Assembly (NCBI GenBank): GCA_040753085.1
Contig: JBFMHI010000004.1
Span: 1-63,116 of the forward strand
From: a bacterium
GTDB lineage: Bacteria > UBA9089 > JASEGY01
Direction of reading: 5' to 3'
DNA: 63,116 nt
Positions 1,819-63,116 of the stretch are shown in pieces. The position numbers and the translations under genes were made by a program. The notes under the pieces are model-generated. The model saw only the letters and a list, made by a program, of their open reading frames with translations, ran no database searches and was not told the origin of the DNA. Numbering within the stretch: position 1 is the first letter of the stretch; each line of letters starts with the position of its first letter.

Positions 1819-2282
1819 ATGATTGAACAAATACGCGCCAGGATTCAGGCAGGACAATTCGAGTTCTCAAAGCACGCCGTTGACCAAAGCGTCCTCCGTC
1901 GTAACCGTTCAGGTATAGCTGCACGGATTAGCACGGATAAATAACACAGGACAGAAGGCGGAAGTGTAGGGACAGGGCTTGTCCCTGTCCGTGCTTGTCC
2001 ATGTCCGTTCCGTAGACGGACAACCACAAGGGTTGTCCCTACAGCCTAAGGACAGACCCGAATCACGGACACGGCTCACGGATTTTCCGTGTTTCATCTG
2101 TGTGCATCTGTGGCTGAACGGTTACCCTCCGTCAAATCAGCGTACAGGAATTGCGGGAGGCGATTGCGAATGGCGAGATTATCGAAGACTATCCAGAGGA
2201 TAAGTATGGTCCAAGTTGCTTACTGCTGAAGCGTTTACGACACGCCTGCGAGATTCGGCAGTCACTTTCGCAGAGATTGTAG
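1819..2282 (+). pseudogene. Second DUF4258 gene, split by a family A mobile element
   Basis: The 5' part (MIEQIRARIQAGQFEFSKHA...) starts at ATG 1819 and is interrupted at 1901 by a 225-bp element. Removing the element plus one copy of the 8-bp duplication CCTCCGTC joins SVLRQISVQELREAI in frame and continues through EIIEDYPEDKYGPSCLLL, a clear DUF4258 core. After LLKRLRHA the frame appears degenerate and stops at 2280-2282, so the C-terminal strand is also lost. The toxin is therefore inactivated, most visibly by transposition. This is a clean before/after example of element insertion. Confidence 0.8.
1901..2125. mobile_element. Family A MITE-like element inside a DUF4258 gene
   Basis: 225 bp with perfect 12-bp inverted ends GTAACCGTTCAG / CTGAACGGTTAC, flanked by the 8-bp direct repeat CCTCCGTC (1893-1900 and 2126-2133). 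The interior carries the 'GTAGGGACAGGG...TTGTCCCTAC' foldback module also seen at 37169, 40729, 53354 and 62880. It has no coding capacity for a transposase. Confidence 0.9.
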
Positions 2283-7902: not shown

Positions 7903-8283
7903 GTAACTATTCAGCCACTGATTGACACGGATTAGCACGGATAAAATAGAATGAGTTTAGTAAGTGTTCAGCCACAAAGACACTAAGACACAAAGATTAA
8001 AGAATTATTTCTTAATAGCTCAACAGAGCAGTAGCCCAGTAGTTAAAGACTTTTCTGAAAGTTCCAGAAGTGCTGCTCTATTGCTCTACTGCTTTCTAAG
8101 GCACATACTTTTTAATAAGTAGCACATTAAAATTGATTAAAAACCAGACTCCTTTTTACCACGAAGACACAAAGAGACTAAATTCATAAATAATTTCCCC
8201 TTCGTGTCTTCATGCCTTGGTGGCTGAAGGGTTACCAAAAAAATCAGTGTTTCATCCGTGTAAATCTGTGGCTGAATAGTTAC
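7903..8283. mobile_element. Family A element carrying a nested family A element
   Basis: Ends GTAACTATTCAG and CTGAATAGTTAC, flanked by AAGAGGGG on both sides (7895-7902 and 8284-8291). A second element (7960-8235) sits inside. The duplicated AAGAGGGG supplies the ribosome site of the next gene, whose TTG start is 15 bp downstream. Confidence 0.9.
7960..8235. mobile_element. Nested family A element with ACACAAAG arms
   Basis: Left end GTAAGTGTTCAGCCAC, right end GTGGCTGAAGGGTTAC. The arms carry the AAGACACTAAGACACAAAG word and its complement. It interrupts the older element at 7903; no TSD is readable. Confidence 0.7.
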
Positions 8284-12922: not shown

Positions 12923-13111
12923 GTAAGCGTTCAGCCACTAAACCGCTAAAGCGGTTGCTTGGGTTTATTAGTATTCCCCCATTCACCCTGATAAATCGGG
13001 GTGCTATTCTCAGGCTTATTGAGTTTAGCACCCTGATTTATCAAGGTGTTACGGATAGGATAACATCTAGAATCATAACCGCTTTAGCGGTTTCAACCCC
13101 TGAACGGTTAC
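12923..13111. mobile_element. Family A element with the CACCCTGATAAATC interior
   Basis: Left end GTAAGCGTTCAG, right end CTGAACGGTTAC, flanked by GAATAATC on both sides (12915-12922, 13112-13119). The interior (AACCGCTAAAGCGGTT, CACCCTGATAAATC) is the same module as in family B elements at 3432 and 9010. It ends 19 bp before the GH57 start. Confidence 0.93.
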
Positions 13112-14891: not shown

Positions 14892-15231
14892 GTAACCGTT
14901 CAGTCCTTTTTTGTCGTAAGGGAAGAGGAGGTAGTAGAGAGAGCGGATAATGTGCTCATGATAATTGCGTTACCAAAAACGCCCACGAAACCGCGGCCAG
15001 TCGAGAGTTCTAACGCCACGGATGTATTCAACCGTCGTCAACGATTTAAAGGCGCCAACCACGTCACCCACTGTAGGGGCAACCCTTGTGGTTGCCCCTG
15101 TGGTTGCCCTGTCATTTTGGGCAAGGGGTTGGGCACCCACAAGGGGTGCCCCTACGATTAAAATCTGTGTCATCCGTGTGCTATTCTATCATTCTCTTCG
15201 TGGCTTAGTGGCTTTGTGGCTGAACGGTTAC
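14892..15231. mobile_element. Family A element, 340 bp
   Basis: GTAACCGTTCAG and CTGAACGGTTAC ends; TCCGAAAC repeats on both sides (14884-14891, 15232-15239). The interior includes a GTAGGGGCAACCC/GGGTGCCCCTAC foldback and a CGTGGCTTAGTGGC word. Confidence 0.93.
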
Positions 15232-15251: not shown

Positions 15252-15408
15252 GTAACTATTTAGCCACAAAGATACGAAGACATTAAGATTATAGAAGCCA
15301 ATAGGCAATAGGGCATTCTTCCCTCTTGCCTATTGGCTATTGGTTATTGGCTCTTGCCTATTGCCTTTGTGTCTTAGCGTCTTAGTGTCTTTGTGGCTGA
15401 ATAATTAC
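15252..15408. mobile_element. Family A element 13 bp upstream of atpG
   Basis: Left end GTAACTATTTAG, right end CTGAATAATTAC; AAGGAGAA on both sides (15244-15251, 15409-15416). The duplicated AAGGAGAA is the atpG ribosome binding site. The interior is a CCAATAGGCAATAG foldback word. Confidence 0.93.
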
Positions 15409-31790: not shown

Positions 31791-32770
31791 CAGAGGACAG
31801 AAGACAGAGGACAGACGAACAAAAGATTAGTGCCGAGACACATTTTACCGGAATACCGATAAGCGGGGGTATAGTCGTGGCCAGGGTGTGCCTTTTTAAT
31901 GAAAGGCGGCACAGCAAGTTGCCTCTTTATAAAGTAACCGGCAAGGGACAGAATCGGGAGAAGGCCCGGCTCAAACGGGCTGTTAAAATCGCAGCCGATA
32001 GGCTCGAAGCTTTAAAGAAAGATGTGGCCGAGCGTATTGGTTCATCCGAGGCGAAAATCTTTGCTGCCCAGAAAATGATCCTGCTGGACAAGGGTGTTAA
32101 CCGGGAAATGATGGAGGCCATTGAAAATAAGGATCTTAATGCCGAGACGGCAGTAGCAACCACCTTGGAGGCCTATGAAACGCGATTGCTCAGTGTGGAC
32201 AACGAATATATCAAAAATGATGCCTCAGATATCGGGGAGATTAAGCGTAGGTTATTAGACGTCTTAAGAAATATGAACCCGTCCTTTCAGTGTGCCGGTC
32301 AAGAACACTGTCAGCGCGGCCGGAACCGTATTGTGGTTGCGGAGGAACTCACGCCCAGCCTCACTTTGGAATTGAATACCGGACAAATCAAGGGATTTGT
32401 GACAGAGCGCGGAGGCAAGGCTTCTCATGCGGCCATCCTGGCCAGAGCACTAGGCATCCCTGCAGTAAGCGGTCTCAAGAATATCCACAGCCTCCTCGAT
32501 TGTGGAACCGAAGTCCTGATTAATGGCGAGACAGGAGAAGTTGTTATTTGGCCCGGCGAGGAAACCATCTCTAAAATACCTTCGCTGCAGCGCATCGAAG
32601 TCCGGAGGTCACAGATTGTCGAGCCTGTGGCAGGGTTTAAGGTAATGGCTAATATCAGCCTTTCGTCGGATGTGGTTGAGGCAAAGGATATGCAGACCGA
32701 GGGAATCGGCTTGTATCGGACGGAGTTTGAATTTATGTCCAGTGAAAAAATCCGGGACGGTTCAAAATAG
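31787..32770 (+). pseudogene. ptsI: PTS enzyme I, N-terminal part, cut by a family C element
   Basis: About 322 native residues before the insertion at 32754, then 5 element-encoded codons. EI takes phosphate from PEP and passes it to HPr. The swivelling-domain active His lies in RGGKASHAAILARALGIPAV, and the HPr-binding helical domain precedes it (VDNEYIKNDASDIGEI). The PEP-domain start TEGIGLYRTEFEFMSSEKI breaks at the element. Removing the element and one TSD copy joins EKI to LKEDEQFERY in frame. The N-terminal ~14 residues are encoded by a GACAGAGG word repeat, so the true start is uncertain. No ptsH or EII gene is nearby. Confidence 0.85.
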
Positions 32771-33017
32771 TCCATTTTCTTGTGAAACCTTGCGACCTGT
32801 AGTGAGCTTTTAGCCCCGTAGGGGCGTATTTATAGCAAGATGCCAACCCTTACATCTCAAGCCCCGTAGGGGCGACATATGTAAAAACATATCGCTTCTA
32901 CGGAGCTTTAACCTTTAACAACATGGTTGTGCCTGGGGAACTATAAATATTCCGCCCCGCTGGGGCTATTGTCGATAATTTTTAGTCGCAAGCTTTCACA
33001 GTAAGGTGAACCGTCCC
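32754..33017. mobile_element. Family C element splitting ptsI
   Basis: 264 bp. Left end GGGACGGTTCA, right end TGAACCGTCCC; AAAAATCC on both sides (32746-32753, 33018-33025). The interior holds AGCCCCGTAGGGGCG and CCGCCCCGCTGGGGC hairpins. A longer copy is at 58424. Confidence 0.93.
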
Positions 33018-34685: not shown

Positions 34686-34867
34686 CGACCTGTATGGTTA
34701 GCTTAACCTTACTCACATCTTTTAAAAACCACGAAGAACACGAAGAACACGAAGGACACCACGAAGATTTTTTTAATCACATTTACCTTACCCTTAATTA
34801 CTTTCTTCGTGAACTTTGTGCTCTTCGTGGTTTATCTTTGCTTTTCCCTACCTAATCATACAGGTCG
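34686..34867. mobile_element. Family B element with ACGAAGAACACGAAG arms
   Basis: CGACCTGTATGGTTAG left end and CTAATCATACAGGTCG right end; CAAGATTT on both sides (34678-34685, 34868-34875). The arms hold the CCACGAAGAACACGAAG word and its complement. Confidence 0.93.
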
Positions 34868-37168: not shown

Positions 37169-37389
37169 GTAACCGTTCAGCCACAGATGCACACAGATGA
37201 AACACGGAAAATCCGTGAGCCGTGTCCGTGATTCGGGTCTGTCCTTAGGCTGTAGGGACAACCCTTGTGGTTGTCCGTCTACGGAACGGACATGGACAAG
37301 CACGGACAGGGACAAGCCCTGTCCCTACACTTCCGCCTTCTGTCCTGTGTTATTTATCCGTGCTAATTCGTGCATACCTGAACGGTTAC
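37169..37389. mobile_element. Family A element, GGGACAGGG type
   Basis: 221 bp, GTAACCGTTCAG / CTGAACGGTTAC; GCCTAATT on both sides (37161-37168, 37390-37397). Inverse orientation of the 1901 copy. Ends 21 bp before the GT gene start. Confidence 0.95.
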
Positions 37390-37410: not shown

Positions 37411-38706
37411 ATGATAAAGTTTGAAGATAAGAATCAACGATTGAAATCGACCACTAAATATCTGATCTCAATTTTTTCTCTGGCTTTATTGATCGGGTTA
37501 TTGATGGCTATTTTTTTCCCTTGCCCAGAATCAGAATTTGAGGATCAGGCCGAATATAATAATATCGCCTGGAATATCCTTCAAGGGCATGGTTATTCTA
37601 TAAATAAAGTTGAGCCTTATGATCCTACAGCTCGACGTGGCCCTACCTATCCTTTCTTTCTGGCCGCCATTTATTTATTTTTTGGGCAGAATTATACCGC
37701 CGTCTATATAATCCAGGCCATTCTATATGCCTTCACCTGCTTGATAATTTACCTGCTGGGAAGAGAAGCCTTTGATAATAAACGGATTGGCTTGATAGCC
37801 GCTTTGGGAGCCGCCCTATATCCTGCCTTTTGGGTATTCATCCGACAACTTATGACCGAACCATTATTTGCCTTTTTATTAGCCATGATTCTTCTCTTAT
37901 GGATTAGAGCTATTAAAGAAAAATCAGCCCGGTGGTATCCGCTCCTAGGGGTATTAATCGCCATAGGGGCCTTGTGCCGAACTACCCTGGCGGCTTTTCC
38001 CCTTTTCATCTTATTAGGTTTACTCCTTCTCTACCAGGATAAAAAGAGGGCTATCATTGATGGAGGAGTAGTTCTCCTGATAACCTTTCTGGTGATTGCT
38101 CCTTGGACGGCCAGGAACTATTTTGTCTTACATCGCTTTATTCCTATTACATCTGATATGGGTAGAGCTCTCGTGGCGGCAATAATACCCTACGAGAATC
38201 GGAAGCAACAGGAAGCTGTTAGAAAGGAGATTATGCCTAAACTTGAAAAGATGATGAGTGAAGAGAAAAAGTCCTTTGATGAGGCGGCTCAGGCGTTAGC
38301 CCGGAGTGAATTCAAAAAGGATCCTTGGAAATACTTTAAGTTCTTACCCCAGAAATTGTTCTTATTTTGGAGGCCGTATAGCTACAGTGAGATGTTTGGC
38401 GTGAAGGCTCCAAGTTGGGAATATATGGAGAATAAGTCTTATGGCCCCTTATTCTTAAAGTTTGCCTTATTGACCTTGAATACACTTCCTCTCCTATTGG
38501 GGATGGTGGGCCTATTTTTTATTCGAGATAAATGGCGGACGGCTCTACCTCTCCTTTTAATAATTGTTTACTTTACACTTGTTCATACTATGGTTCATGC
38601 TGGAACCGGCACTCGTTACCACGTCCCGATAATGTCGGCTGTATTTGTCCTTGCTTCACTTGGAATTGTAAAGGTAATCGGGTTGGTAAAACCCGGTGAT
38701 CGGTAA
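37411..38706 (+). CDS. GT-C type membrane glycosyltransferase (GT39/PMT-like)
   Basis: 431 residues with about ten hydrophobic segments. The first membrane span (LISIFSLALLIGLLMAIFF) is followed by an acidic extracytoplasmic loop PESEFEDQAEYNNIAWNILQGHGYS, the typical catalytic-loop position of GT-C enzymes, then RRGPTYPFFLAAIYLFFG. Such enzymes transfer sugars from polyprenyl phosphate to proteins or lipids. The acceptor is unknown. Preceded by AAGGAGGAGG. The downstream polyprenyl synthase could supply the lipid carrier. The stop codon borders a 7-bp tandem array. Confidence 0.75.
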   Translation: MIKFEDKNQRLKSTTKYLISIFSLALLIGLLMAIFFPCPESEFEDQAEYNNIAWNILQGHGYSINKVEPYDPTARRGPTYPFFLAAIYLFFGQNYTAVYIIQAILYAFTCLIIYLLGREAFDNKRIGLIAALGAALYPAFWVFIRQLMTEPLFAFLLAMILLLWIRAIKEKSARWYPLLGVLIAIGALCRTTLAAFPLFILLGLLLLYQDKKRAIIDGGVVLLITFLVIAPWTARNYFVLHRFIPITSDMGRALVAAIIPYENRKQQEAVRKEIMPKLEKMMSEEKKSFDEAAQALARSEFKKDPWKYFKFLPQKLFLFWRPYSYSEMFGVKAPSWEYMENKSYGPLFLKFALLTLNTLPLLLGMVGLFFIRDKWRTALPLLLIIVYFTLVHTMVHAGTGTRYHVPIMSAVFVLASLGIVKVIGLVKPGDR

Positions 38707-39000
38707 GATGCTCGATGCTCGATGCTCGATGCTCGATGTTCGATACTCGATGCTGGATGCTCGATGCTGGATGCTCGATGCTGGATGCTCGATGCTCGAT
38801 GCTGGATGCTCGATGCTCGATGCTGGAGGCTGGATGCTCGATGCTGGATGCTCGATGCTGGATGCTCGATGCTCGATGCTCGATGCTCGATGCTTGATGC
38901 TCGATACTCGATGCTGGATGCTCGATGCTCGATGCTGGATGCTCGATGTTGGGAAAGGATTCAGTATCCAGCATCGAGGATCGAATATCGAGCATCGAGG
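38707..39000. repeat. Long 7-bp tandem array (ATGCTCG/ATGCTGG)
   Basis: About 34 consecutive heptamers from 38707 to about 38950, alternating ATGCTCG and ATGCTGG, then GGGAAAGGATTCAGTATCC and inverted heptamers (AGCATCGAGG) to 39000. Because 7 is not a multiple of 3, all three forward frames stay open (MLDARCS-type repeats), as does a reverse frame. The same word and the same loop appear inside family A elements at 43740 and 58955. Confidence 0.9.
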
Positions 39001-39029
39001 ATGGTCTTGTGGCGGCGGGAGGCCGCGCT

Positions 39030-40728: not shown

Positions 40729-40975
40729 GTAACCGTTCAGGTATGCACGAATTAGCACGGATAAATAACACAGGACAGAAGGCGGAAGTGTAGGGACAGG
40801 GTTTGTCCCTGTTCGTGAGGGACAGGGCTTGTCCCTGTCCGTGCTTGTCCATGTCCGTTCCGTAGACGGACAACCACAAGGGTTGTCCCTACAGCCTAAG
40901 GACAGACCCTAATCACGGACACGGCTTACGGATTTTCCGTGTTTCATCTGTGTGCATCTGTGGCTGAACGGTTAC
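40729..40975. mobile_element. Family A element, GGGACAGGG type
   Basis: 247 bp, GTAACCGTTCAG / CTGAACGGTTAC. Flanks TATTAACC (40721-40728) and AATTAACC (40976-40983) match 7/8; the left copy contains the TAA of the polyprenyl synthase. The interior carries an extra GGGACAGGGTTTG repeat. Confidence 0.9.
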
Positions 40976-43739: not shown

Positions 43740-43916
43740 GTAAGCGTTCAGCCACTAAGGCACAAAGACACAACCTCGATCCTCGATCCTGGATGCTCGA
43801 TGCTGGATGCTCGATCCTGGATACTGAATCCTTTACCAGCATCGAGCATCCAGCATCGAGCATCCAGCATCGAGCATCCAGCATCGAGCATCCAGGATCA
43901 TGTGCTGAACGGTTAC
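43740..43916. mobile_element. Family A element with CTCGATG interior
   Basis: GTAAGCGTTCAG / CTGAACGGTTAC; GAAATAAC on both sides (43732-43739, 43917-43924). The interior is the CTCGATGCTGGATG heptamer word folded around GAATCCTTTACCAGC. Confidence 0.95.
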
Positions 43917-44985: not shown

Positions 44986-45143
44986 CTTATCCTTACCCAC
45001 ATCTTTTAAAAACCACGAAGAGCACGAAGGGTACGAAGAATTATAAAAATAAAACAAATATTTTTTTCTTCGTGTCCTTCGTGCTCTTCGTGGTTTATCC
45101 TTACTTCTCCCATCCTTTTACCCAATTTGTGGGTAAGGATAAG
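44986..45143. repeat. Inverted-repeat element with CACGAAGAGCACGAAG arms
   Basis: CTTATCCTTACCCAC at the left and GTGGGTAAGGATAAG at the right. The interior word matches that of the family B element at 34686 (ACATCTTTTAAAAACCACGAAG), but the outer B termini are missing. No gene in 44857-45496. Confidence 0.7.
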
Positions 45144-45144
45144 A

Positions 45145-45306
45145 GTAACCGTTCAGCCACCAAGGCACGAAGACACGTATGTGTCTTAGAGAGCAGTAGA
45201 GCAATAGAGCAGCAGTTCTGGAACTTTCAGAAAAGTCTTTAACTACTGCTCTGCTGCTCTACTGCTCTATTTTTGTGTCTTAGTGTCTTTGTGGCTGAAT
45301 ACTTAC
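45145..45306. mobile_element. Family A element
   Basis: GTAACCGTTCAG / CTGAATACTTAC; GGATAAGA on both sides (45137-45144, 45307-45314). Arms carry the GGCACGAAGACACG word and GAGCAGTAGAGC hairpin. It lies next to the inverted-repeat element just upstream. Confidence 0.95.
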
Positions 45307-47398: not shown

Positions 47399-48901
47399 AT
47401 GAAAATTGCCATAGTAGTGGCCTTGTTTTTAGGAGTGGCCTATTTACCTTCAATCCTGTTCCCTGACTTACAGAAGGAAAAAACACCGGCGACGGTCGAA
47501 GAGACTAAAAGAGATACAGACCACCCTATAGTCACGGAAATTGAGGAGACCGGAGAGGCAATAGAATCTGAGACGGAAGCCTTGATTACTGAGGCGGAAT
47601 TGGAAGAGCCAAGACAATTAGAGCCATCAATAGAGCCTCAGCCACTGGTCGTAGAGTCAGAGATGAGGGAACTAAAAAGAACGGCGGCGCCTGTTTTTAA
47701 GCCCGAAACCAAGGCGGCTGTGACTGAAGAGGTTGAAGCAGAACTTCCACCTGAGAAGGAGCTAAAAAGAGCGCCTGTGCCTGTTTTTAAGCCTGAAACC
47801 GAGGCGGCTGTGACTGAAGAGGTTGAAGCAGAACTTCAACCTGAGAAGGAGCTAAAAAGAGCGCCTGTGCCTGTTTTTAAGCCTGAAACCGAGGCGGCTG
47901 TGACTGAGGAGGTTGAAGCAGAACTTCCATCTGAGAAGGAGCTAAAAAGAGAACCGGCGCCTGTTCTTGAGCCTCAAGAAATAGAGGCTACTGAGACCGA
48001 AGAGCTTAAAGTAGAACTTCAAGCTAAGAGGAAGATACCTGAAGAGGCAGAGGATACCAGAGCGATCTCTTTACCTACGGAGGCTATTGAGGTAGAGCTT
48101 ATCCCTTCTCCGTCTCCCCCAAAGGCCCTTCCCCCTAAAAAAGAACCCGCCGTCGAAGAAAAAGAAAGAGTAATTGAGGTCTCCCCCTTGCCTGGACCTA
48201 CCCTGCCGGAAGTTGTCCCCGAGAGACGACTGGTGCTGGTCCTGTTCAGCCTGCCGGGCGATCCGGCCAATCTTGTCTTAAAACAATTAGGGCAGGGCTT
48301 GCGGGAGACTAATTTATTCAAGGTCGTTTCGCTTAATTTGCCACTTTTAGAAGAGAGCCTGATAGAGACCACCCGAAATATAGCTCATCTGGAGGGGGTT
48401 TCTATGAAAGAGGCCGTTGACATCTGGGGAGCAAACGTGGCTATCACTGGCAAGGTCGTAAGTAACACTTACTTCTCCTCGATGGTATTAAATGTTAAGC
48501 TCCTTAGACTCCCGGATGGCAAAGAACTATTGAGCAGAACGATCTTGACTTCCAGAGACAGGGTGGAATCAGAGATCGAAGCCCTGATAGAGGAGATAAA
48601 GGATCAATTTCCTATTCAACAGGGCCGGGTAATCCAGGTTGAAGGGGATTACATCATCCTCGATTTAGGTTATCTCCACGGCTTAAAGGAAGGGATGGAA
48701 CTATTAGTCTACCGGGTAGGGGGACTGCTCAAGGAATCAGCCCAAGGTTCTGCTTCGAGCGGTGAGATAATGGGAGCCAGAACAGAAGATGTAGCTATTA
48801 TTCGGGTAGACAAGGTTACTGACAAAAGCGCCCGGGCCAGCCTTCTGGAACTCTTTCCTGTCCAGGAAATTAAGGTTGGGGATCGGGTAATAAGCAGGTA
48901 A
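47399..48901 (+). CDS. Membrane-anchored protein with tandem acidic/Pro repeats and CsgG-like C-terminus
   Basis: 500 residues. One N-terminal membrane span (IAIVVALFLGVAYLPSILF) and a ~240-residue Glu/Pro-rich linker containing about 3.5 tandem copies of a 30-residue unit (ELKRAPVPVFKPETEAAVTEEVEAELPPEK, between about 47670 and 47990). The C-terminal ~230 residues (RLVLVLFSLPGDPANLVLKQLGQGL...DIWGANVAITGKVVS... QGRVIQVEGDYIILDLGYLHGLKEGMELLVYR) resemble CsgG or FlgT-like domains and share the 'DLGxxHGxKxG' phrase with the preceding PEGA protein. Likely an envelope protein that spans the periplasm by its linker; role unknown. Confidence 0.65.
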   Translation: MKIAIVVALFLGVAYLPSILFPDLQKEKTPATVEETKRDTDHPIVTEIEETGEAIESETEALITEAELEEPRQLEPSIEPQPLVVESEMRELKRTAAPVFKPETKAAVTEEVEAELPPEKELKRAPVPVFKPETEAAVTEEVEAELQPEKELKRAPVPVFKPETEAAVTEEVEAELPSEKELKREPAPVLEPQEIEATETEELKVELQAKRKIPEEAEDTRAISLPTEAIEVELIPSPSPPKALPPKKEPAVEEKERVIEVSPLPGPTLPEVVPERRLVLVLFSLPGDPANLVLKQLGQGLRETNLFKVVSLNLPLLEESLIETTRNIAHLEGVSMKEAVDIWGANVAITGKVVSNTYFSSMVLNVKLLRLPDGKELLSRTILTSRDRVESEIEALIEEIKDQFPIQQGRVIQVEGDYIILDLGYLHGLKEGMELLVYRVGGLLKESAQGSASSGEIMGARTEDVAIIRVDKVTDKSARASLLELFPVQEIKVGDRVISR

Positions 48902-48911
48902 GGGATTTCAG

Positions 48912-50219
48912 ATGGTAAGATGCTTTAACATGCGAACCACTCCTTTTGTTTGGCTATTTGGTCTACTTTTCATAATAACTGGCTGTGCTTATAGATATAG
49001 AGGAATAAGATTAGATGAGGCCGTAATTCCTAATTATGTCCCAGTTCTTTCTATGGGTCGATTAGGCAATGGCCAGGCCGAATTTGACCACCCTAATGGA
49101 TTGGCCATTGATAACAAGGGGAATCTTTATGTCACTGATATGGGTAATCATCGGGTGCAGGTCTTTGATCAGGCCGGTCGATTTAAGAATCTCTTTTATC
49201 GGGAAGGGGTGGGCGTAAGTTCTTTTAAGAGTCCGGCGGGGATCGCTGTTTTTAATCGTCGCCTTTATGTGGTGGATCGGGAAACAAATATATTAAGCGA
49301 ATTTACTCTTGAGGGGGGTTTTCTGACGGCCAGGCCCCACTTTGAGTGGGTAAAAGAGAAAGGCGGAGAGACGGGCCAGGAGCATTTTATCGGCCTTAAT
49401 AGCGTAACCGTGGATAAAGATGGCACCCTTTATGGTCTTGAAGGTGACCGGGCTATTACCTGTGATGGAAGACATATTTATTTAGCCAATATAGACCGGG
49501 TTCAGAAGCTGACCATTCCTGAACGGAAGGTCATTCTGGAATTCGGTCAATGGGGCAAGGCCCTGGGAGAATTTAGACTTCCCCAGGGGATTGCGGTTGG
49601 ACCTGAAGGAAAGATCTTTGTGGCCGATACCCTTAATAATCGCATTCAGATCTTTGATCGACATGGAAATTTCCTGGGTGTCATTGGCCAGTATGGCAAG
49701 GGAGCCGGAGAATTCTATCATCCCACCGGGGTTGGGGTAAATGATCAAGAAGAGGTCTGGGTAGCCGATTATGACAATCACCGTATCCAGAAGTTTATCC
49801 CCCGATTTAAGGTGGAAGTCCCGGCCGGCCTTGAGGGGCAAGACTCTGCTTATATCTACCATGAAGGCCGTCGGCTTCTGACCCTTAATCGTTATCATCA
49901 GGCCATTGCTTATTTCTCTCTGCTGGTTGAAGGAAGGGACGAATTGGCTGATAATGCCCAATTTTATATAGGCCAAGCCTGGCAGGGCCTCAAGGAATAC
50001 GAAGAGGCATTTTTAGCTTACGACCGCCTCATCCGAAACTACCCGGCTTCAGATAAGATAGCGGCGGCTTTACTCAGAAAAGGGGATATGGCCAGAGAGC
50101 TTGGCTTCCTCTCAGAGGCGAAGGAGGCTTATGAGCAGATTTTAACCCGGTTCCCCGGTGAGTATTTGCTCAGGGAGAGGGCTAAGCAGAGGCTTAAATT
50201 GCTGGGGGGAAGGCAATAG
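48912..50219 (+). CDS. NHL-repeat and TPR lipoprotein
   Basis: 435 residues. A lipoprotein signal (VWLFGLLFIITGCAY) with Cys25 leads to about five NHL beta-propeller blades: FDHPNGLAIDNKGNLYVTDMGNHRVQVFD, FKSPAGIAVFNRRLYVVD, FRLPQGIAVGPEGKIFVADTLNNRIQIFD and FYHPTGVGVNDQEEVWVADYDNHRIQKF. A TPR tail (NAQFYIGQAWQGLKEYEEAFLAYDRLIRNYPAS) follows, like YbgF. It sits third in the PEGA/CsgG-like cluster and is probably an envelope scaffold. ATG 48930 is an alternative start. Confidence 0.75.
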   Translation: MVRCFNMRTTPFVWLFGLLFIITGCAYRYRGIRLDEAVIPNYVPVLSMGRLGNGQAEFDHPNGLAIDNKGNLYVTDMGNHRVQVFDQAGRFKNLFYREGVGVSSFKSPAGIAVFNRRLYVVDRETNILSEFTLEGGFLTARPHFEWVKEKGGETGQEHFIGLNSVTVDKDGTLYGLEGDRAITCDGRHIYLANIDRVQKLTIPERKVILEFGQWGKALGEFRLPQGIAVGPEGKIFVADTLNNRIQIFDRHGNFLGVIGQYGKGAGEFYHPTGVGVNDQEEVWVADYDNHRIQKFIPRFKVEVPAGLEGQDSAYIYHEGRRLLTLNRYHQAIAYFSLLVEGRDELADNAQFYIGQAWQGLKEYEEAFLAYDRLIRNYPASDKIAAALLRKGDMARELGFLSEAKEAYEQILTRFPGEYLLRERAKQRLKLLGGRQ

Positions 50220-50318
50220 CCAAAAGGCAAAAGGCAATAGCCAATAGGCAACAGCCAATAGGCAATAGGCAACAGCCAATAGGCAAAAGCCAATAGCCAA
50301 TAGGCAACAGCCAATAGG
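50208..50318. repeat. CCAATAGGCAATAGC word repeat, with a family A right end
   Basis: About ten degenerate copies of CCAATAGGCAA follow the NHL gene, then TTTGGTCCC words, ending in CTGACTAGTTAC (right end at 50390), 14 bp before the PFK start. No left end found. Confidence 0.65.
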
Positions 50319-50404
50319 CAATAGTCTCTTTAGTCCCTTTGGTCCCTTTGGTCCCTTTAGTCCCTTTGGCTTTGGTGCTGACTAGTTACAGAAAGGAGTT
50401 AGAG

Positions 50405-53353: not shown

Positions 53354-53550
53354 GTAACTGTTCAGCCACTGATTAACACGGATTAGCACAGATAAATAAC
53401 AGAGGACAGAAGGCTGAGTTGTAGGGACAAGGCTTGTCCCTGTCCGTTCCGTAGGCGGACAATTGTCCCTACAACCTTAGTTGCAGGAAAATACGCCGTA
53501 GCGGGATTTTTCCGTGTTTCATCTGTGTGCATCCGTGGCTGAACGCTTAC
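53354..53550. mobile_element. Family A element, GGGACAGG type
   Basis: GTAACTGTTCAG / CTGAACGCTTAC; AAGATTAG on both sides (53346-53353, 53551-53558). 197 bp with the shared GGGACAAGGCTTG module. Confidence 0.95.
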
Positions 53551-58024: not shown

Positions 58025-58440
58025 TTGACACCTATTTTACCGAGTTGGAACAGCTGCTCCAGCAAGGGGTCCCGATCCGGTCGTATAGCCTCAAGAAAAA
58101 GGTGTATAATACCAAATATGGCTGTATAAGGGGGACGATTGTGTTTGAACAGGGCACACAGTTAGACTTTATGGAAGTCAAAAATACCGATGTCTCGGCC
58201 AAAATCAAATATCGGTATCACTATATGACGAGTCAACAAGCGTTGATCTTTCGGTACGATAATGCCCCGCATCATCGGCAGTTGAAGACCTTTCCGCATC
58301 ATAAACATCTCCCCCAGGGCGAGCAGGAAAGTGACGAGCCGACGTTAGAAGCGGTGTTATTCGAAATTGCCCAACACGAACGGAAGAAGGGGAGACAAGA
58401 TCGTTGCCAGACTGAGAACATTGGGGACGGTTCAAAATAG
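58021..58440 (+). CDS. DUF6516 (TumE-like) toxin
   Basis: 139 residues, of which about 130 are native: MIDTYFTELEQLLQQGVPIRSYSLKKKVYNTKYGCIRGTIVFEQGTQLDFMEVKNTDVSAKIKYRYHYMTSQQALIFRYDNAPHHRQLKTFPHHKHLPQG. The RYDNAPHHR and FPHHKHLP motifs are characteristic of DUF6516, a toxin family that cleaves RNA. The last ~6 residues (GDGSK) are encoded by the left end of a family C element. The core motifs are complete, so the toxin could be active. Confidence 0.8.
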   Translation: MIDTYFTELEQLLQQGVPIRSYSLKKKVYNTKYGCIRGTIVFEQGTQLDFMEVKNTDVSAKIKYRYHYMTSQQALIFRYDNAPHHRQLKTFPHHKHLPQGEQESDEPTLEAVLFEIAQHERKKGRQDRCQTENIGDGSK

Positions 58441-58779
58441 TCCATTTTCTTGTGAAACCTTGCGACCTGTAGTGAGCTTTTAGCCCCGTAGGGGCGATAT
58501 ATTTATAGCGAGATGCCAACACTTACATCTCAAGCCCCGTAGAGGCGATATATGTAAGAACATATCGCTCCTACGGAGCTTTAACCTTTAACATGGTTCT
58601 GCCTGGGGAACTATAAATATTCCGCCCCGCTGGGGCTATTGTCGATAATTTTTAGAGCCTATCCCAAAACCTCTCCAGTGTGACCAGAAGCCGAGTTTCT
58701 TCAAGAAACCAGGTTTCTATCGCGGAGGTTTTGGGATAGGCCATTAGTCGCAAGCTTTCACAGCAAGGTGAACCGTCCC
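58424..58779. mobile_element. Family C element carrying a family D element
   Basis: GGGACGGTTCA / TGAACCGTCCC, interior nearly identical to the ptsI copy, interrupted at 58655 by a TA-bounded family D element. No 8-bp duplication readable at the outer ends. Confidence 0.85.
58655..58744. mobile_element. Family D element nested in the family C element
   Basis: 90 bp between TA dinucleotides (58653-58654, 58745-58746); GCCTATCCCAAAACCTC and its complement near each end. The ptsI copy of the host element reads TTTTTAGTCGC without it, so this is an insertion. Confidence 0.85.
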
Positions 58780-58954: not shown

Positions 58955-59089
58955 GTAAGCGTTCAGCCACTAAGGCACAAAGACACAACCTCGATGCTCG
59001 ATCCGGGATACTGGCTCCTTTACCAGCATCGAGGATCGAGCATCGAGGATCGAGCATCGAGAATCCAGTATCATGTGATGAACGGTTAC
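58955..59089. mobile_element. Family A element 19 bp upstream of gyrA
   Basis: GTAAGCGTTCAG left end; right end ATGAACGGTTAC; GATCCAGG on both sides (58947-58954, 59090-59097). Interior CTCGATG heptamer word with the TCCTTTACCAGC loop, as in 43740. Confidence 0.95.
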
Positions 59090-62825: not shown

Positions 62826-63116
62826 GTAATTATTCAGCCACTGATTGACACGGATTAGCCCGGATAAAATAGAATGAGTGTAACCGTTCAGCCACAGATG
62901 CACACAGATGAAACACGGAAAATCCGTGAGCCGTGTCCGTTGATTCGGGTCTGTCCTTAGGCTGTAGGGACAGCCCTTGTGGTTGTCCATCTACGGAACG
63001 GACATGGACAAGCACGGACAGGGACAAGCCCTGTCCCTACACTTCCGCCTTCTGTCCTGTGTTATTTATCCGTGCTAATCCGTGCAGCTATACCTGAACG
63101 GTTACGAATGAGTTTA
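62826..63116. mobile_element. Family A outer element, interrupted by another copy and by the window edge
   Basis: GTAATTATTCAGCCACTGA then the CACGGATTAGC word, the same sequence as the outer element at 7903. The element at 62880-63105 sits inside it; sequence resumes as GAATGAGTTTA at 63106, the same bases as 7949-7958. Confidence 0.85.
62880..63105. mobile_element. Family A element nested in a family A element
   Basis: 226 bp, GTAACCGTTCAG / CTGAACGGTTAC, GGGACAGGG type, flanked by GAATGAGT on both sides (62872-62879, 63106-63113). Without it the host sequence reads as in the 7903 copy. Confidence 0.95.

Follow-up and report, generated by a model that had tools for sequence, protein, structure and literature searches.

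The stretch of DNA analysed here (the window, 63,116 nucleotides) is all of contig C4 of a 3.05-Mb draft genome, which comprises 250 contigs and is 97% complete. At the right end of the window, an inner element of the M2 family interrupts an outer element of the M1 type. The inner element reads GTAACCGTTCAGCCAC..CTGAACGGTTAC, and the exact 8-bp sequence GAATGAGT stands on both sides of it. An earlier note had described a 226-bp element at 62880, and we find its positions to be exact. Our analysis confirms that the 226-bp element is a real unit insertion into an older element of the type seen at 7903, with an 8-bp target duplication. Further elements of the same terminal-repeat superfamily lie across the window (Table 1). 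One of them splits a DUF4258 gene; of the two halves, which were searched separately, the downstream one matches the DUF4258 profile from position 13 on.

Table 1. Nested insertion at the right end of the window and other superfamily elements within it
Feature	Positions	Strand	Details
Outer (M1-type) element, left part	62826..62879	+	GTAATTATTCAGCCACTGATTGACACGG..GAATGAGT; contig C84 carries on as GAATGAGTTTAAAATATGG
8-bp target duplication, left copy	62872..62879	+	GAATGAGT
Inner 226-bp non-autonomous IS66-type element (M2 family)	62880..63105	+	ends GTAACCGTTCAGCC / GTAACCGTTCAGGTATAGCT; interior non-coding, palindromic
Inner element, right terminal repeat	63086..63105	-	reverse complement GTAACCGTTCAGGTATAGCT; 20 nt identical to left end of IS66 TnpC element, G013 (L207:893)
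8-bp target duplication, right copy	63106..63113	+	GAATGAGT; then TTA to window edge
Outer-element comparison copy, 381 bp	7903..8283	+	duplication AAGAGGGG on both sides; inner GTAA-ended element 7960-8235 without its own duplication
M2 copy, 225 bp	1901..2125	-	duplication CCTCCGTC; splits DUF4258 gene
M2-family copy, 221 bp	37169..37389	+	duplication GCCTAATT
M2-related element, 247 bp	40729..40975	-	duplication TATTAACC/AATTAACC
GTAAGCG-ended element, 177 bp	43740..43916	+	duplication GAAATAAC; with 58955-59089, uninterrupted form of the C140 host
GTAAGCG-ended element, 135 bp	58955..59089	+	duplication GATCCAGG
Same-superfamily element, 197 bp	53354..53550	+	duplication AAGATTAG
Same-superfamily element, 189 bp	12923..13111	+	duplication GAATAATC
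Same-superfamily element, 340 bp	14892..15231	+	duplication TCCGAAAC
Same-superfamily element, 157 bp	15252..15408	+	duplication AAGGAGAA
Same-superfamily element, 162 bp	45145..45306	+	duplication GGATAAGA

Other repeats are also present in the window. A second family, AACCACGAAGAACACGAAG..CTTCGTGCTCTTCGTGGTT, occurs at 34702-34853 and 44986-45116, and in genome G018 its longer relative (L364) has a complete GxxExxY gene inside it. Arrays of a 7-bp unit (CTCGATG/CTGGATG) at 38665-39002, 43775-43910 and 58976-59080 fall partly within GTAAGCG-ended, target-duplicated elements, while a different 7-bp unit (AGGCAAT/AGCCAAT) is arrayed between ORFs at 50190-50336. Three 90-bp tandem repeats (47665-47977) probably lie within the ORF at 47399-48901. 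Finally, a 240-bp repeat is duplicated at 32743-32985 and 58413-58655 with approximately 95% identity; it contains the palindromes CCCCGTAGGGGCG and CCCCGCTGGGGC and is unrelated to the GTAAC family.

Pre-insertion copies and continuation of the locus

Excision of the 226-bp insert in silico yields ATAGAATGAGTTTA, the same sequence as in the 7903 copy, and alignment of the outer left 54 nt to 7903-7956 reveals only two mismatched positions. The earlier note regarded the 7903 copy as a record of the pre-insertion state. The match after excision holds, but the 7903 copy is itself interrupted. Because its nested element (7960-8235) begins 3 nt past the target, the copy documents only those 3 nt and is not the cleanest witness of the empty site. 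Better empty sites are provided by other contigs of the genome. Outer-type copies there contain the 18-nt sequence GAATGAGTTTAAAATATG without a break: it is exact on C19, C37, C147 and C210 and has a single mismatch on C2, C90 and C181. The pre-insertion state therefore does exist elsewhere.

At least eight outer copies have a GTAA-ended element at or beside the junction of AATGAGTT with GTAA (7960-8235 in the window; L012, L013, L018, L022, L024, L026 and L033). These elements lack a right-hand duplication, and both the inner elements and their orientations vary. This pattern could go back to a single nested insertion in an ancestor that was later altered by deletion, inversion or terminal-repeat exchange.

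Beyond position 63116, the locus can be followed in contig C84, whose first 127 bp are identical to the final 127 bp of the window and which proceeds as GAATGAGTTTAAAATATGG, the sequence of intact outer copies. The shared 127 bp is a typical assembly overlap. The sequence GTTACGAATGAGTTT has exactly two occurrences genome-wide, here and at C84:112; the assembly has just one further near match, in C152, which is a single base off and belongs to an unrelated insertion. As the earlier note had expected, the sequence goes on as the 7903-type element, for 19 nt; past AAAATATGG, the further nested end GTGACCGTTCAGCC follows. The right end of the outer element was searched for in C84 and not found, which indicates that the outer element is truncated. 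No terminal repeat precedes the 8-mer GAAAAATG at C84:551, and we take it as a chance match.

The 226-bp family and its target duplications

Exact 8-bp duplications flank 28 of the 33 M2-family copies examined, and none is 7 or 9 bp long. When the flanks of different copies were paired with each other as a control, no match appeared (0/1056), which rules out coincidence. Together with the empty sites, these counts bear out the idea of the earlier note that the repeats move as units. The M2 copies differ from their consensus by 0.54%, and their mean pairwise identity of 99.0% points to a recent burst.

The same length preference is seen beyond this family. Among GTAA-type terminal inverted repeat (TIR) pairs over 575 kb of this genome, 55 have exact duplications of 8 bp, none of 6 or 7 bp and one of 9 bp, and shifted controls gave none. 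None of the exactly duplicated TIR pairs found in the same 575 kb spans more than 600 bp. Exact ends number 327 in the genome, against 0 with a reversed-pattern control. On contig C140 we observed a second nested M2 insertion with the duplication AGGCACAA, and the uninterrupted form of its host is present in the window at 43740 and 58955.

The 226-bp family is short and non-autonomous, with inverted repeats, target duplications and many near-identical copies, which are the features of miniature inverted-repeat transposable elements (MITEs). No GxxExxY match was detected in it.

IS66-type ends and GxxExxY cassettes

The published marks of IS66 are ends starting with GTAAGCG and 8-bp direct repeats (PMC11946415). 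In this genome, the ends begin with GTAACCG, GTAACTA, GTAAGCG or GTAAGTG, and GTAAC is commoner than the published GTAAGCG start. The elements thus share with IS66 the GTAA start of the terminal repeats and duplications of 8 bp, with essentially no other length. Genome G013 of the same phylum contains a decayed solo-TnpC IS66 element of 1563 bp, bounded by GTAACCGTTCAGGTATAGCT and GTAACCGTTCAGGTAGGTAG. The former end and the right end of the 226-bp element agree at every position over 20 nt; the first 16 nt of the latter are common to the GxxExxY-carrying elements of G013 (L346). Ca. Desulfaltia has an intact TnpC of 541 aa inside GTAACTATTCAG ends, in an element of 3.3 kb.

The 226-bp and the 197/256-bp elements encode no transposase and are hence not autonomous IS66 elements. 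Searching the genome's own bin with the PF03050 and NF033517 profiles revealed no full IS66 transposase, only weak scraps, one of them at E 0.009. The sole clear IS66 trace is a TnpC scrap (QLCWAHLKRNL; L395, G000:C160 ~1440-1600), approximately 100 bp inside an GTAACCGTTCAG end. A multi-copy TnpC element of 1.5-2.5 kb would collapse to a short contig and might thereby have escaped binning. PF03050 likewise finds no match in several Desulfobacterales genomes that carry these ends, one of them the complete chromosome G063. At the TnpC copies with matching ends (L207, L251 and L253), no recognisable target duplication was found; mobilisation in trans by TnpC is thus the best explanation, yet one that we infer.

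Among GTDB genomes, the sequence GTAACYRTTCAGCCACNGATNNACACNGAT is present under the labels Desulfobacterales/Deltaproteobacteria, Methylobacter and Armatimonadetes, and a Methylobacter copy (L105) has an exact 8-bp duplication. Known plasmids and viral contigs gave no match, and GTAACYRTTCAGCCACNGATNNACACNGAT is absent from the viral contigs. A Methanophagales contig (L116, QENJ01000019.1) was considered as a sign of archaeal spread. Since ECF sigma-factor and IS3-like genes are present on it, bacterial contamination is the probable explanation, and we make no archaeal claim.

Intact outer elements measure 195-257 bp, and several have perfect 8-bp duplications. Inside them is a degraded segment that, once translated, resembles the GxxExxY family (PDDEXK_3), with PF13366 matches in the copies on C90 (E 1e-9) and C210 (E 1e-7). 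The genome itself has 21 GxxExxY fragments (PF13366) and no full-length gene; a related complete ORF matches TIGR04256 (E 6e-39). Desulfobacterales genomes have complete GxxExxY genes enclosed by the same GTAACTATTCAGCC ends with equal spacing, and the alignment spans both ends. One such complete element with the same ends (L082) has a duplication matching at 7 of 8 positions. Genomes of the same phylum as the window also contain complete versions, and among GTAA-ended elements with GxxExxY genes the 8-bp duplications are perfect in L352 (GTGTATAA), L356 (GATAGGTG) and L368 (AAATGGGA). The complete elements therefore combine IS ends and a target duplication around a non-transposase gene, as mobile insertion cassettes do. 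The outer element appears to be what internal deletion has left of a small cassette, in which IS66-type ends enclosed a single GxxExxY gene.

Flanking inverted repeats exceed the 95th percentile of controls at 46 of 54 GxxExxY genes (G013, G018 and other genomes), and the p value of ~4e-28 overstates independence, since the GxxExxY copies are related and the 807 controls are open reading frames taken at those loci and not genes from an annotation. The ends are abundant in G000, G013 and G018, and it is these genomes that have the most PF13366 matches in the phylum; the ends are absent from G001 of the same genus. No solved GxxExxY structure was found at the sequence level. Judged by title and abstract, the literature searched contains no report on GxxExxY mobility or a cassette link, and such absence is not proof of novelty.

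Candidate movers and wider meaning

We consider it highly probable that the 226-bp element is an IS66-type MITE, moved in trans by a TnpC-family transposase into a derivative of a GxxExxY cassette. In this model, the transposase would bind the GTAAC-type inverted repeats of the 226-bp element and move it, and insertion with an 8-bp duplication would follow in an older element having the same kind of ends. The older host would have arisen by internal deletion from a cassette with one GxxExxY gene inside IS66-type ends. We infer that TnpC does the mobilising in this genome and that GxxExxY travels as a passenger and is not a mobiliser. The latter is treated as a passenger because the M2 burst family lacks GxxExxY, as do IS66 elements with the same ends.

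GxxExxY, which has a PD-(D/E)XK nuclease fold, might instead be the enzyme or an essential partner, with the MITEs as its non-autonomous derivatives and IS66 merely similar in its ends. It is the sole gene of the complete elements, at fixed spacing to both ends, and the excess of flanking inverted repeats includes ends other than GTAAC. The genomes that have these ends and no PF03050 match, and the joint abundance of ends and PF13366 matches within the phylum, also speak for such a role. However, we judge it unlikely. Only GxxExxY fragments are present in the own genome, in which the 226-bp copies are nevertheless 99% identical; some IS66 TnpC elements have the same ends and lack GxxExxY, and the 226-bp family itself has no match to it. 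Moreover, no transposase of PD-(D/E)XK fold is known to act alone. A broader idea is that GxxExxY genes generally are the single gene of minimal mobile elements, in several phyla and with varied inverted repeats. The nuclease would then aid movement, and short environmental repeats (GTAACTATTCAGCCAC.., ACCACGAAGAACACGAAG..) would be their remains; we offer this only as a speculation with a rather small chance of being right.

It is quite improbable that the mover belongs to another transposase family. IS256, ISL3 and IS1595 are known to make 8-bp duplications, and TnpC is missing from the bin, which would suit one of these or an unknown family. The GTAA ends and the 20-nt identity to the end of a same-phylum IS66 TnpC element argue against it. 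In addition, no transposase of another family was found between such ends, and the TIR pairs with exact duplications over 575 kb contain nothing above 600 bp.

The window is a complete contig that ends inside repeats, so the nested structure might have been created by joining two repeat copies during assembly. We give this very little credence in view of the exact 8-bp duplication, the overlap with C84, which is unique in the assembly, and 27 other exact duplications of the 226-bp family in contig interiors. A structured RNA or a REP/ERIC-type repeat spread by recombination is refuted for practical purposes: the strong fold of the 226-bp element (MFE -97.3 kcal/mol, z -7.5) follows from its nested palindromes, but the duplications are sharply specific in length, the ends are common to TnpC elements, and Rfam at the gathering threshold detects only two tRNAs in the window and no family at the element.

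The elements can be compared with several known systems. They resemble solo-TnpC IS66 elements in their GTAA ends, 8-bp duplications and 20-nt terminal identity, whereas no transposase lies inside them and none is complete in the bin. Like prokaryotic MITEs (MITEAba12, PMC6382973; reviewed in PMC10969869), they are short and non-coding, with inverted repeats, many near-identical copies, duplications and probable movement in trans. They differ from those MITEs in how densely they lie, in nesting repeatedly and in having terminal repeats common to several phyla; the 2024 review of prokaryotic MITEs mentions neither IS66 nor nesting (PMC10969869).

The complete GxxExxY elements are similar to mobile insertion cassettes, with IS-like ends, one non-transposase gene and target duplication. 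Unlike those cassettes, their passenger is a widespread orphan nuclease-like family, with tens of copies, which also occurs inside other kinds of inverted repeats. RAYT/REPIN systems likewise unite many short dispersed palindromic repeats with a gene family of related distribution. In contrast to them, the elements here have 8-bp duplications and IS66-type ends, and the gene linked to them does not encode a RAYT transposase. ERIC and Correia repeats, from enterobacteria and neisseriae, are also intergenic, palindromic, mobile and nested; they differ from the present elements in the 8-bp target duplication, the GTAAC ends and the sequence itself. REP and ERIC repeats are marked by the lack of a target duplication of fixed length, and 8-bp duplications are present here.

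In an uncultured lineage, the nested insertion and its empty sites preserve a clear trace of transposition. They connect the repeats that crowd intergenic regions of environmental genomes with IS66-type ends and with GxxExxY, a widespread gene family that is rich in paralogues and little covered in the literature searched. If GxxExxY genes are cassette passengers, mobility explains their patchy distribution and copy number. The cassette remnant that forms the outer element suggests how a widespread orphan gene, GxxExxY, multiplies in bacterial genomes.
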